From positions 39,629-103,628 of the IMG/VR virus record IMGVR_UViG_3300008267_000040: 64,000 nucleotides of DNA; one strand, 5' to 3'. The stretch's first letter is position 1, and every line of letters starts with the position of its first letter. The notes beneath the pieces are model-generated. The model had not been told where the DNA came from, searched no databases, and was given only the letters and a program-made list of their open reading frames with translations. A program made the translations under genes and the position numbers. Of this stretch, positions 39,413 through 55,221 are shown one piece after another. The DNA comes from a virus.

Positions 39413-39655
39413 CAACACTGTTTAATTAGAATAGACGAAGCACCACGAATAAGAACAAAACAGTGCTGTTTAATTATAATAAAATAGTATTACCCAGGTA
39501 TAGGATAAACGAAACCTCCGATTATTCTGTAAGAACAGTGCTGTTTAATTAGAATTAATAACTATACCCCAGGTATCATAATACTCGAAGACCACCGAGT
39601 TGTCAATGCATAAGGACTAAACATAAAGGACGAAACAGTGCTGTTTAATTCTTAT
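39413..39655 (+). repeat. Four copies of a 22-bp repeat, AACAGTGCTGTTTAATTAGAAT type
   Basis: Copies lie at 39413-39432 (CAACACTG variant), 39459-39480, 39534-39555 and 39634-39655; copies 3 and 4 are exactly 100 bp apart. Each starts with an AACAG-N2-CTGTT dyad followed by an AT-rich arm. Spaced copies in a gene-free stretch suggest binding sites (iterons or operators). Confidence 0.85.
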
Positions 39656-44103: not shown

Positions 44104-44161
44104 AATCTACCAGAAAAAAGTGCCAGTGCCCGTTTAGTGTGCCACCAGTACAAGTGGCACA
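44104..44161 (-). promoter_or_regulatory. Early promoter/stem-loop cassette B
   Basis: TGTGCCAC/GTGGCACA stem-loop (44138-44161, 8-bp stem, loop CAGTACAA), then CTAAACGGGCAC, then -10-like TAGATT (44104-44109). Sequence around it (GAGTCCAGTGATACCC before, GTCCCACC...GAGTCCCAAT after) is shared with cassettes A and C. Confidence 0.55.
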
Positions 44162-44808: not shown

Positions 44809-45194
44809 TTGAGTTGGAGTTAGTTTGACGTTTGTGGGGTGGGTTGGTTGCCCTTCCCTCACCACCCCTATACAATACCACATTTTGGGCACTGTGCTCA
44901 TTTACTGTGCCACCAGTACAAGTGGCACATCGCATAATTGGACTCGGTGGGACTGGATTTTGCTAGGAAGCACCAACCCCCCTGAGTCCTATGCGGGACA
45001 CATAATGAGACCGAGAAGAGTTTTTGTTTCTTCTCTGATTCCACCTGCAACCCAGGCACCCCCCACCGCAGGATGCAGTCCCATTGCAGTCTCGTGTGAA
45101 ACTGTTGATTTGGGATTTTTCTGCAATCTGGGGTCAAGGTGCCCTAGGTCATGGACCACAATCTCATCGACGGTCCATCTGAAACTGTTGAGAA
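44809..45194. other. 386-bp gap: cassette C plus a gene remnant-like stretch
   Basis: 44872-44929 is a promoter/stem-loop cassette. The rest (44930-45194) is more GC-rich than its surroundings and has no convincing gene. It begins, reading leftward to the cassette, with a leader-like GTCCCACCGAGTCCAATT that elsewhere precedes genes, and carries a 12-bp direct repeat TGAAACTGTTGA (45097-45108, 45180-45191) and a TGGACC/GGTCCA inverted repeat (45153-45177 region). It may mark a lost gene. Confidence 0.5.
44872..44929 (-). promoter_or_regulatory. Early promoter/stem-loop cassette C
   Basis: TGTGCCAC/GTGGCACA (44906-44929) with the same CAGTACAA loop as cassette B, then GTAAATGAGCAC and -10-like TATTGT (44872-44877). 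It precedes the 65-residue TG-x-ELL gene. Confidence 0.55.
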
Positions 45195-46304: not shown

Positions 46305-46364
46305 ATCATAGCACCCCCAGCAGGGGTTTGGACGGTGTAATGTGCCACCTCTACAAGTGGCACA
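46305..46364 (-). promoter_or_regulatory. Early promoter/stem-loop cassette D
   Basis: TGTGCCAC/GTGGCACA (46341-46364, loop CTCTACAA), then a CCCC/GGGG mini-hairpin (46315-46326), then extended -10 TGCTATGAT (box 46305-46310). Drives the ArdA-like operon. Confidence 0.7.
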
Positions 46365-48111: not shown

Positions 48112-48171
48112 ATAATACCCCAGAATCCCCCGTACCGCAACCGCATCTGTGCCACCCCTACAAGTGGCACA
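48112..48171 (-). promoter_or_regulatory. Early promoter/stem-loop cassette E
   Basis: TGTGCCAC/GTGGCACA (48148-48171, loop CCCTACAA), TTGCGG (48135-48140), 17-nt spacer, TATTAT (48112-48117). It lies directly after the Dam stop. Confidence 0.65.
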
Positions 48172-48177
48172 CCAGCA

Positions 48178-48996
48178 TCAATAAATGGCAATCAGTTCTT
48201 TAACTTTTCCCCTTGATTCGGAACTAGCACCAACACTCCTATTCACATCAACTTCAATTATCTTTCTTGCATCACAGTAAAGTTCTCTTGCTCTCTCTAC
48301 ATCATGATTGCTGATGATTACTTTTGCTCCTTGACTTTTGAGATACTTTGCAAGTTCAACCAATCGTATTTGGTCTGAATCAGTAAATCCCTCGGTATGA
48401 TAATCTGTAAAATTAGATGTTTCACTCAATGGAATGTAAGGTGGGTCAAAATAAACAACAGTTTTCTCATTGATGTTTTGATACAACTTCATTTCAGAGA
48501 AATCAAGAGAGTGCATGTATAATTGATTCTTCTCTCTCATTGTGTTGGTGAAGTTAATCATTTCAGTTCTTGGGAAAGTCACACTCTTATACTTTCCAAA
48601 GGGAACATTATACTTACCTTGTTTGTTGTATCGAGTCAATCCATTGAAACTATGTTTGTTGAGATAGACAAATAATGCAGACTTTTCTCTGCTATCTGCA
48701 GTTTCATTGAACAGTTCTCGATTTCTATAGAAAACTACTTCATCATTTCCATCAATAAAGTAAGATTCACAATAGTCAATGAAGTCATTGCCTTCTGAAA
48801 TCAAATACTGATAAGTCCGAATCAAATCATTGTTTGCGTCATTGATAACAATGACTGGGCAATCCACAATGTTCAGTGATACACTTGCTGCACCACTGAA
48901 CGGTTCAATAAATTGAGTTGGATACCCAATAATAGGAATAAGTTGGGGCAGGAGTCTAAACTTACCACCTGCCCACTTTAGAAAAGGTTTATTCAT
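48178..48996 (-). CDS. dam: DNA adenine methyltransferase (D12/Dam class)
   Basis: 272 residues (T4 Dam: 259). Class-alpha N6-adenine methyltransferase motifs are complete: KPFLKWAGGK at 3-12, FIEPFSGAASVSLN at 29-42 (AdoMet binding) and DPPY at 184-187 (catalysis); the target-recognition region RYNKQGKYNVPFGKY (122-136) is of the GATC-Dam type. It would methylate adenine, most likely in GATC. Its ATG comes 2 nt after the stop of a MutH/Sau3AI-family nuclease gene, so the two are co-transcribed from the 49667-49695 promoter. GATC sites occur in the window, consistent with self-protection. Confidence 0.93.
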   Translation of the reverse strand: MNKPFLKWAGGKFRLLPQLIPIIGYPTQFIEPFSGAASVSLNIVDCPVIVINDANNDLIRTYQYLISEGNDFIDYCESYFIDGNDEVVFYRNRELFNETADSREKSALFVYLNKHSFNGLTRYNKQGKYNVPFGKYKSVTFPRTEMINFTNTMREKNQLYMHSLDFSEMKLYQNINEKTVVYFDPPYIPLSETSNFTDYHTEGFTDSDQIRLVELAKYLKSQGAKVIISNHDVERARELYCDARKIIEVDVNRSVGASSESRGKVKELIAIY

Positions 48997-48998
48997 TT

Positions 48999-49646
48999 TT
49001 ATCCAGAGATACTTCTACCAAAATCAGCACGCAAATAAAATGCCATACCCTTATCATTAAGGGTTACACCTGTAAAATCACAAGGAGTATAACCACCTTT
49101 TTTCCGTTGAGATGCTTTTGTACGAATTTGCATCAACATGTTGGGTCCATTTATAGTGTGAGTTGGTTTACCTTTATTTGGACCCTTCTCATTTACAAAC
49201 CCAAGTTCATCCAATTCCACACCACGTTCGTATGCAAGTCTGATATTATCGCAAATAAAATTATAATCCTCACGAAGTTTATGATAATGCTCTGGGTCAA
49301 CTTCTTCATTGAGAAGTGTAGTCCCCAAATACTCATTTTCCTTCGAAAATGAAATGTAAATAACTTGCTTCAGTTTTTCTCCAACTTTACTTTCTTCAAA
49401 AGAAACTTTATCTTCGATGATTTCAGAAAGACAATGTTTCATTTGAGTTATAGCAATCGTTTCACCAACAGTAAAAGTTTTTAGTTCACCGTCAATCATA
49501 TCAGTGAGTTCGGAATTGTTTTCCATTCCCAACGCATTTTGGATAATTTGACCACGAGAACCTTTATTCTTTGTTGGTTTGCCAAACCCCTTAAAGTCAG
49601 TGACTTTTAGTTTAGCAACAACTTGAACAGTGGAGAGTTTTTGCAT
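48999..49646 (-). CDS. MutH/Sau3AI-family endonuclease
   Basis: 215 residues from ATG 49646; a longer frame from 49688 would overlap the promoter. It aligns by eye along the whole of E. coli MutH: KGSRGQIIQNALG (28-40), the catalytic stretch TDMIDGELKTFTV with Glu54-x-Lys56 and Asp49, SKVGEKLKQVIYISF, HKLREDYNFICDNI, MQIRTKAS and GMAFYLRADFGRS. MutH nicks, and Sau3AI cuts, at unmethylated or hemimethylated GATC. The adjacent dam gene makes this a likely Type II-like restriction-modification pair or a methyl-directed nuclease. The spacing Asp49-Glu54 is shorter than in MutH, so the Asp assignment is tentative. Confidence 0.82.
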   Translation of the reverse strand: MQKLSTVQVVAKLKVTDFKGFGKPTKNKGSRGQIIQNALGMENNSELTDMIDGELKTFTVGETIAITQMKHCLSEIIEDKVSFEESKVGEKLKQVIYISFSKENEYLGTTLLNEEVDPEHYHKLREDYNFICDNIRLAYERGVELDELGFVNEKGPNKGKPTHTINGPNMLMQIRTKASQRKKGGYTPCDFTGVTLNDKGMAFYLRADFGRSISG

Positions 49647-49666
49647 GTCTCTTTGTGTATGAATAC

Positions 49667-49725
49667 ACTGTAACCGATTCCCAGGCAAAAGTCAAGGGGG
49701 TTGTGCCACCAGTTCAACTGGCACA
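49667..49725 (-). promoter_or_regulatory. Early promoter/stem-loop cassette F (MutH-dam operon)
   Basis: TGTGCCA/TGGCACA stem-loop (49702-49725), then TTGACT (49690-49695), 17-nt spacer, TACAGT (49667-49672), 20 nt before the MutH-like ATG. Best -35/-10 pair among the GTGCCAC cassettes. Confidence 0.8.
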
Positions 49726-50253: not shown

Positions 50254-51489
50254 TTAGGCAGCAACAACCTCACCTTTCACAAATACAGTGTCAATGACAC
50301 TCTGAAGTTGCCGAGCAATCCTATCTCCATAGTTGTTATTCACAGGAATAGTGATAGTACCAAAGGGTTTCTTGTAGAAAGCAAACTCACCTGCTTTCAT
50401 CTTACCCTCTGCGATTGCTTGACGGTCATCACGGTGCATACGGATAACCCTTCCGATTGTTTGGCACATTTCAATCATAGGAAGATTACGCAGCATAATG
50501 CAATGAGTCAAACCTTGAACGTTGATACCTTCAGACAGAATGCTGTAGTGAAATACAATGAACTTCTTGTCTGGGTCAGCACCAAAATCACTCATCTTCT
50601 CAAAGAATACTTCACGAGACACTTTGGTTTTGTCGATGTAAGCACCATGCTTGGAAGTGATATGCATAATCGTGTAACCCATATCATTGAGTTGTTGAAG
50701 CAAATCACTTTCAGTGAACATTGCCCAAATTACTTTGGTGCTCGGTGCAGCAACAAGAACTTTAGGTGCATCACAATCAGAAATACCAGACAGGATACCT
50801 ACAATGTTCTCTGCATCTACAAAAGGTGCATTTTCCTTTGTGCGAATCGTTTGTGCTTCATAAGGCACAACCCGAGGAGGAATAATACTGCCTGCTTCAA
50901 TCAATTCTTTAGCAGGAATACTGATGATATTATTACCATAAACATCAGTATTGTTCATAGACTCCATACTGTTATTGAACTTCGGAGTTGCAGTGAAGAA
51001 ATAAGCATTATCTGCAACTGCTGAAGTGTGAGCAATGCCCACAAAGTTAGATGGTTTCACACAGTGGTGTGCTTCATCAAAATACACCACATCAATGTTA
51101 ATTTCTGCTTCATTCACCCGACCAATGGAATTGTAAGTGGTGAAAATGAATTGATGCTTGCCACTTCCGATTGCTGTGTCATTGTATTCTGCAATGACTG
51201 CTGGACGTGTAGAGGATTGATGATGAGTTTCACCACTGTGAACGTGCATATAAGCAATGTTTTGCTCTTTGAGATATTGTTCAAACTCCGAACAGAGTTG
51301 ATTTGCAAGCAGGATTCGAGGTGCAACAACAACAAACGTCATCGGTTCTTTTGCGTTAAGAACACGTTGACGGGCATCTTCCATCATCACAACAGTCTTC
51401 CCACCACCAGTAGGAATATACACTGAACCCCTGATTGCTTTCTGCACAGCATCAAGAGCACGTTGTTGATAAGGAAGAAGAGTCAGCAT
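50254..51489 (-). CDS. SF2 DEAH-box helicase
   Basis: 411 residues from ATG 51489; a TTG codon just before is less likely. Helicase motifs in order: LLPYQQRALDAV (Q-like), IPTGGGKT at 25-32 (Walker A), VVYFDEAHH with DEAH at 138-141, FTATP at 165-169, and QTIGRVIR at 343-350 (motif VI). It has the ResIII/RAD25 arrangement of short phage helicases and resembles UvsW in class rather than closely in sequence. Likely ATP-dependent DNA translocation or branch migration in replication/recombination. Own promoter at 51515. Confidence 0.88.
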   Translation of the reverse strand: MLTLLPYQQRALDAVQKAIRGSVYIPTGGGKTVVMMEDARQRVLNAKEPMTFVVVAPRILLANQLCSEFEQYLKEQNIAYMHVHSGETHHQSSTRPAVIAEYNDTAIGSGKHQFIFTTYNSIGRVNEAEINIDVVYFDEAHHCVKPSNFVGIAHTSAVADNAYFFTATPKFNNSMESMNNTDVYGNNIISIPAKELIEAGSIIPPRVVPYEAQTIRTKENAPFVDAENIVGILSGISDCDAPKVLVAAPSTKVIWAMFTESDLLQQLNDMGYTIMHITSKHGAYIDKTKVSREVFFEKMSDFGADPDKKFIVFHYSILSEGINVQGLTHCIMLRNLPMIEMCQTIGRVIRMHRDDRQAIAEGKMKAGEFAFYKKPFGTITIPVNNNYGDRIARQLQSVIDTVFVKGEVVAA

Positions 51490-51514
51490 CAATCAATCAC
51501 GTTTGTATTCATAC

Positions 51515-54587: not shown

Positions 54588-54752
54588 CTATTTTTTGAGA
54601 GTCTTTGTTTCTAATCCTTTGACAACCATTCCTTTCTTAATCATTTTCATCATTGCTTCTTGTGCCGATTCAAGTTGAAAATAACAAGCAAACTTGGTCT
54701 CACCCATAAACTCATACTCTACAGTATAGAATTCATTATCAAGTTTAGGCAT
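54588..54752 (-). CDS. Small hypothetical protein
   Basis: 54 residues, MPKLDNEFYTVEYEFMGETK, then FACYFQLESAQEAMMKMIKK. Overlaps the HNH gene end by 8 nt. Function unknown. Confidence 0.65.
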   Translation of the reverse strand: MPKLDNEFYTVEYEFMGETKFACYFQLESAQEAMMKMIKKGMVVKGLETKTLKK

Positions 54753-55221
54753 AGCAATACTCTTTCCATTCTGGAACGTTTGCTCTATCCAATGAGAAAA
54801 GCATCTTATTGAATGGTTTTCTTGGAACAGATTGAAGAACTAAATTAGTATCTTCTAGAAGTTTATCACTCTTTCTAGTGTTGCAAGGCATACAAGCAAC
54901 AACGAGATTTTCCCAAGTATCTTGACCACCACGAGAACGTGGAATGATGTGGTCAATGGTTAGTTCCTTTGTTGAACCACAATACTGACATTTATGACCA
55001 TCACGTTTATAAATCATTGTTCTTGATGGTTTATTTTGGGAGAGTTTCTCGTATGGCAACTTAATATAATTAACCAAACGGATGACTCTTTTACCGAGTG
55101 CCTGTGCTTTATTTTTCATAAGCAGCACAATTGCTCTCTTCCAATTAGTGAAGTTAATTGGTTCATAAGATGCGTTTAGAACAAGTATTGTTTGATTTGG
55201 TTCAATTTTTAAGTAGTCCAT
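54745..55221 (-). CDS. HNH endonuclease (McrA-like, cyanobacterial type)
   Basis: 158 residues. The N-terminal ILVLNASYEPINFTNWKRAI is characteristic of a bacterial HNH family common in cyanobacteria. The zinc/HNH core is complete: CQYCG (78-82), TIDHIIPRSRGGQDTWENLV (88-107) with the catalytic His91 and Asn105, and CMPCNTRK (110-117). Such free-standing nucleases cut DNA or serve as homing/host-DNA-degrading enzymes; no intron is visible nearby. Confidence 0.88.
   Translation of the reverse strand: MDYLKIEPNQTILVLNASYEPINFTNWKRAIVLLMKNKAQALGKRVIRLVNYIKLPYEKLSQNKPSRTMIYKRDGHKCQYCGSTKELTIDHIIPRSRGGQDTWENLVVACMPCNTRKSDKLLEDTNLVLQSVPRKPFNKMLFSLDRANVPEWKEYCYA

Follow-up and report, generated by a model that had tools for sequence, protein, structure and literature searches.

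In restriction–modification systems of the Sau3AI/DpnII type, a GATC-type adenine methylase adjoins a MutH-like or PD-(D/E)XK nuclease; Sau3AI itself is about 489 aa long and has two MutH-like domains. Phage T4 marks its own DNA by cytosine modification, and in its denA/denB pathway the modified phage DNA is spared and the host DNA is destroyed. Viral pairs of a GATC methylase and a nuclease are already known from eukaryotic viruses, namely the chlorovirus CviAI system and the marseilleviruses (melbournevirus), for which recycling of host DNA or exclusion of rivals has been proposed; in marseilleviruses the host DNA is not degraded, and rival exclusion is favored (PMC7253447). Cyanomyoviruses lack denA, ndd, and denB (PMC2984593).

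We analyzed a mutH-dam gene pair in a 64,000-nucleotide stretch of DNA (the window) that covers positions 39629–103628 of a 103,628-base IMG/VR virus record. Judged from its sequence, the window phage is T4-like, with a baseplate protein that shares 63% identity with the counterpart in Synechococcus phage S-SCSM2R. A sequence-only reading had described the pair as a MutH-like nuclease and a Dam methyltransferase behind one promoter, arranged as in a GATC restriction–modification system, with guided repair as an alternative. Our results make it probable that the pair is a viral GATC-directed, restriction–modification-like module with an exchangeable nuclease; its activity and specificity and the methylation of virion DNA are inferred. 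By analogy, the chlorovirus and marseillevirus systems are its closest functional parallels, although they belong to eukaryotic viruses, whereas here T4-like phages carry a nuclease of the MutH fold. To our knowledge, the nuclease family of those systems differs from that fold.

Gene Structure and Neighbors

The mutH gene precedes dam with an intergenic gap of 2 nt, and the D12-class methyltransferase is complete, as the sequence-only reading had stated (Table 1). The single sigma70 promoter that it proposed fared less well. A candidate site is present upstream of mutH, but the region contained 10 promoter-like sites against 7.3 ± 2.9 in shuffled sequences, no excess over chance, and a single promoter for the two genes is therefore plausible but not shown. 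The inverted repeat downstream of dam is a possible boundary of the transcription unit. The same hairpin recurs intergenically, with an imperfect last copy recognized by eye, and is possibly a terminator or boundary element. An Rfam search of the region gave no match. In many other cyanophages, a homolog of the neighboring helicase lies next to dam and its nuclease gene.

Table 1. Positions of features in the window and, where a contig label (L) is given, at related loci
Feature	Position	Strand	Remarks
MutH-fold endonuclease gene	48999..49646	-	215 aa, ATG start, intact ORF, phrog_15364
Dam-family (D12, type alpha) N6-adenine methyltransferase gene	48178..48996	-	272 aa, intact ORF
Candidate sigma70-type promoter TTGACT-N17-TACAGT	49667..49695	-	9/12 matches, just upstream of mutH
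Inverted repeat TGTGCCAC-N8-GTGGCACA	48148..48171		Just downstream of dam
Imperfect hairpin TGTGCCACCAGTTCAACTGGCACA	49702..49725		Resembles the 48148–48171 repeat; just upstream of candidate promoter
Further intergenic copies of the hairpin	44138..44161, 44906..44929, 46341..46364		
SF2 (ResIII/DEAD) helicase gene	50254..51492	-	412 aa
HNH endonuclease	54745..55221	-	phrog_16726, E 9e-59
Dam-MutH fusion, S-8S29 (OQ504979.1)	L006:3110-4588		492-aa ORF
PDDEXK_11 gene beside dam	L010:3897-4331, L009:3888-4322		phrog_6124
Uncharacterized family upstream of dam	L196:9376-9975, L242:2537-3154, L254:3443-4039		198–205 aa
PDF...ECK protein and second methylase downstream of dam	L256:10935-12414		PF01555 (N6/N4)
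Dam neighbor in Barba5S	L190:2291-3760		489 aa

The Nuclease Resembles MutH in Fold and Active Site

The 215-aa protein belongs to a family of "unknown function" (phrog_15364, E 7e-69), and its relationship to MutH was detectable only by NCBIfam, hhalign, and structure. Of the two Pfam families by which the sequence-only reading proposed to check the pair, only that of the methyltransferase was matched: for the nuclease, Pfam gave no match, PF02976 (MutH) included, and neither did searches of PDB sequences with the single protein (phmmer) or with a profile. The NCBIfam MutH model NF003458 matched with E 1.5e-7 and 30.8 bits, below its equivalog cut-off of 243, and hhalign aligned the protein with E. 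coli MutH over 162 columns (E 6e-7), to which its identity is about 20%. From 43 family members an AlphaFold2 model was built (pLDDT 77, pTM 0.79) and compared with the PDB using Foldseek. The five best matches, 2aoq and four further entries, were all E. coli MutH (E 3.3e-6 to 4.9e-4, probability 1.00) and no other protein matched below E 0.1, the next standing at E 0.2. We regard it as confirmed that the likeness to MutH (PDB 2aoq, 2azo, 1azo) exceeds chance. The resemblance to Sau3AI that had been suggested alongside was not recovered in structure, with no Sau3AI entry among the significant matches, and unlike Sau3AI the phage protein has a single domain.

According to the hhalign mapping, the catalytic D70/E77/K79 of E. 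coli MutH correspond to D49/E54/K56 of the window protein, so that the active-site loss that would have refuted the sequence-only reading is not seen. These residues, together with R175-T176-K177 (R184-P185-K186 in E. coli) and Y204 (Tyr212), are invariant in 50 of 50 aligned rows; K91 (K116) is invariant in a 43-row alignment, and K48-G49 is matched by K28-G29. Among these positions, R184, K186, K116, and Tyr212 of E. coli MutH are GATC-contact residues, and all four are conserved in the window protein. The change from Pro185 to Thr is common to the whole family. A further difference from E. coli MutH, overlooked in the sequence-only reading, is Gln36 in place of the expected Glu56. Glu occupies this position in 48 of the 50 rows, including the sister phages L192 and L193, the exceptions being the window protein and an identical copy on a second contig, L001; the divergent L195, found after this tabulation, also has Gln here, along with D-x-K. 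Around positions 146–162 the window protein has in addition some 17 inserted residues and, given both features, this copy could be impaired. For a sister pair with 95.5% identical MutH proteins, dN was 0.024 and dS 0.21, which indicates purifying selection on MutH.

A Dam of Probable GATC Type and Its Association with the Nuclease

The window Dam passes PF02086 (185 bits, E 2.5e-54) and TIGR00571 "dam" (239 bits, cut-off 115). Its nearest solved structures are the GATC enzymes E. coli Dam (2g1p) and DpnM (2dpm), with phmmer E values of 2.7e-55 and 1.4e-42. A DPPY motif lies at residues 184–187, and the region through which E. coli Dam contacts GATC (K9, N120, L122, R124, P134, and Y138) is conserved. 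In the absence of methylation data, GATC methylation by the window Dam is inferred from this likeness and from the depletion of GATC described below.

Relatives of the MutH-like protein were found with tblastn in 25 isolate records, all of Synechococcus phages (49–55% identical), and with a profile scan at least 117 were found in IMG/VR. All 25 isolate records also contain this Dam, and it was likewise present on the first five MutH-bearing contigs of more than 200 kb examined; counts of isolates are inflated by near-identical ones. The MutH profile matched none of 19 other phage records, 17 without an E. coli-like Dam and two with Dam and another nuclease, while the positive control S-IOM18 was matched. 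A scan of genome contigs gave one match only, in a Rhodobacteraceae MAG, on a contig of 8.5 kb that probably stems from a phage and was mis-binned.

In most isolate carriers the two genes lie side by side or are fused. Neptunevirus and Tefnutvirus isolates have the order dam, mutH, helicase, and the window has helicase, mutH, dam; in S-CAM7 dam adjoins the helicase with mutH about 32 kb off, and on some other contigs dam and mutH are tens of kilobases apart. In S-8S29 the intervening stop codon has been lost and the two genes form one reading frame. The annotation of that frame mentions DNA adenine methylase only.

The Nuclease beside Dam Is Exchangeable

MutH proved to be only one of several nuclease types associated with this Dam, a point absent from the sequence-only reading. 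In S-RIM50 and ACG-2014b, the gene right after dam encodes a 144-aa PDDEXK_11 protein (E 2.7e-11), and the same family replaces MutH beside dam in 39 isolate records. This Dam is present in 64 cyanophage records (48 named Synechococcus and 16 named Cyanophage), of which 25 have MutH and 39 have PDDEXK_11, without an overlapping accession; the last four records were inferred from counts and are not among the matches listed. Even S-RIM8 and S-RIM50, which belong to one genus, differ in the nuclease encoded between dam and the helicase.

Among 80 Dam loci from IMG/VR, 33 hold MutH, 13 PDDEXK_11, five a third type, and two a fourth, and none holds two kinds. The remaining 27 have no nuclease in the stretch covered; some of these are fragments, and several have MutH elsewhere on the contig. 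The third type shows the motif GEAIV...PDG...E-x-K, and its model matches the R2 retrotransposon endonuclease (E 6e-4) and PD-(D/E)XK enzymes, among them Can2, Bax1, and HindIII (E 0.004 to 0.03), with a weak PADLOC match to REase_II. The fourth, with PDF...ECK, was assigned by motif only, and both types are putative nucleases.

The contrast between the two genes is also seen among close relatives. Compared with the window, L192 and L193 have a 95% identical Dam and a 59–60% identical MutH, with dN of 0.03 and 0.35–0.36, respectively; the nuclease gene has therefore been exchanged or is evolving much faster than dam.

An uncharacterized family whose motifs and model are PD-(D/E)XK-like lies directly upstream of dam on three contigs, and on another a PDF...ECK protein and a second methylase lie downstream (Table 1). 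The Dam neighbor in the Rheinheimera phage Barba5S suggested a Sau3AI-like enzyme by its length, but this was rejected, as its sequence reads as a phosphoesterase with an intein-like insertion.

GATC Is Depleted in Carriers

The count of GATC proposed in the sequence-only reading was made against a maximal-order Markov expectation, usually on 40 kb sampled per genome. The observed-to-expected ratio was 0.15–0.77 (median 0.51) in 21 carriers and 0.71–1.02 (median 0.87) in 17 noncarriers, with the groups almost fully separated (Mann–Whitney p 2e-7); the p value is optimistic because the genomes are related. Other 4-bp palindromes separated the groups far less, the next being CATG (p 1.9e-4). Freshwater S-CRM01, without the module, had a ratio of 0.87, and the PDDEXK_11 carrier G025, at 0.90, was not depleted. 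The whole 103-kb record of the window phage strongly avoids palindromes beyond GATC, with no CCGG (48 expected), no CGCG (seven expected), and AGCT at 0.19 of expectation.

As proof of self-restriction the depletion is weakened by phages that have Dam alone and are GATC-poor too, pEa_SNUABM_9 (0.27) and Barba5S (0.36). The hosts of both are gammaproteobacteria that may possess MutH, and this host enzyme may already exert selection against unmethylated GATC (PMC4687349). The same controls lend some weight to a reading in which Dam is armor against host GATC enzymes and the linked nuclease has another job, such as recombination, packaging, or host takeover, so that their pairing is incidental. 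Orphan phage Dams are indeed common, and carriers avoid further palindromes such as CCGG. Incidental pairing, however, fits poorly with one of two nucleases being present in every one of the 64 Dam-bearing cyanophage records, with the mutual exclusion of the nuclease types, and with the existence of a Dam-MutH fusion, and we consider the armor reading unlikely.

Restriction–Modification or Repair

For strong activity, E. coli MutH depends on MutL (PMC3848065), and by analogy the phage protein may be weak on its own. None of 12 carriers tested encodes MutS or MutL. This weakens the case for self-contained repair but does not exclude the use of host proteins, and a portable methyl-directed mismatch repair remains conceivable in which Dam would mark old strands and the MutH-like protein, working with MutS and MutL of the host, would nick new strands where GATC is hemimethylated. 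The closest structures are those of the repair MutH, down to the equivalents of Tyr212 and Lys116, and cyanobacteria have MutS and mostly MutL, although mutL is missing in some Prochlorococcus (PMC5101192). But the place of MutH is also taken by unrelated PD-(D/E)XK proteins, which are not expected to couple to MutL, and repair would predict that GATC is kept, where we see depletion. We therefore rank repair, which the sequence-only reading had left as an alternative, as improbable, and favor the restriction–modification-like reading because Dam co-occurs in all nuclease-bearing isolates, the nuclease slot is exchangeable, one fusion exists, GATC is depleted, and the carriers tested have no MutS or MutL. 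That the window nuclease is a weakened or altered copy that mainly binds GATC or regulates is highly doubtful: Gln36 in the window lineage and L195 speaks for it, but all other checked residues save the family-wide Thr are kept, the reading frame is intact, and L001 encodes the identical protein.

Under the restriction–modification-like reading, the phage would, after entry, produce its MutH-fold nuclease, by which unmethylated GATC would be nicked or cut, and Dam would methylate GATC in the phage's own replicating DNA. The methylated phage DNA would be spared, and unmethylated DNA would be attacked, be it that of competing phages or a host chromosome without GATC methylation. A host with such methylation would be immune, leaving only rivals affected. 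The nuclease would be the swappable part, the same Dam being paired with a MutH-like, a PDDEXK_11, or another PD-(D/E)XK-like protein.

Discussion

The GATC methylase of other cyanobacteria is mostly missing from picocyanobacteria (PMC4390886), and mutH was found in none of the cyanobacteria examined (PMC5101192); with both largely or wholly absent, the chromosome of a picocyanobacterial host should be exposed. The proposed outcome resembles that of the T4 denA/denB pathway, with the phage DNA marked differently. More tentatively, T4-like cyanophages without denA, ndd, and denB could use Dam and an interchangeable nuclease to recognize and destroy unmethylated DNA of picocyanobacteria or rivals, and exchange of the nuclease at a fixed Dam could be a modular viral arms race; we hold this as a possibility rather than our expectation.

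Our literature search found no paper describing a Dam-MutH pair in cyanophages, and in one database entry (PQ638372, WH25-B) the gene already bears the name MutH. Three points appear to be new within the literature searched: the occurrence of a MutH-fold member in T4-like phages, the exchangeability of the nuclease, and the proposed connection with the absence of denA, ndd, and denB.

With these results, a likely fold and function can be assigned to phrog_15364 and to the nuclease slot that many cyanophages have next to dam. In the subset of cyanophages carrying the module, an untested route of destroying host or rival DNA becomes directly testable, and S-RIM8, S-RIM50, S-IOM18, S-CAM7, and S-8S29 are isolates suited to such tests.
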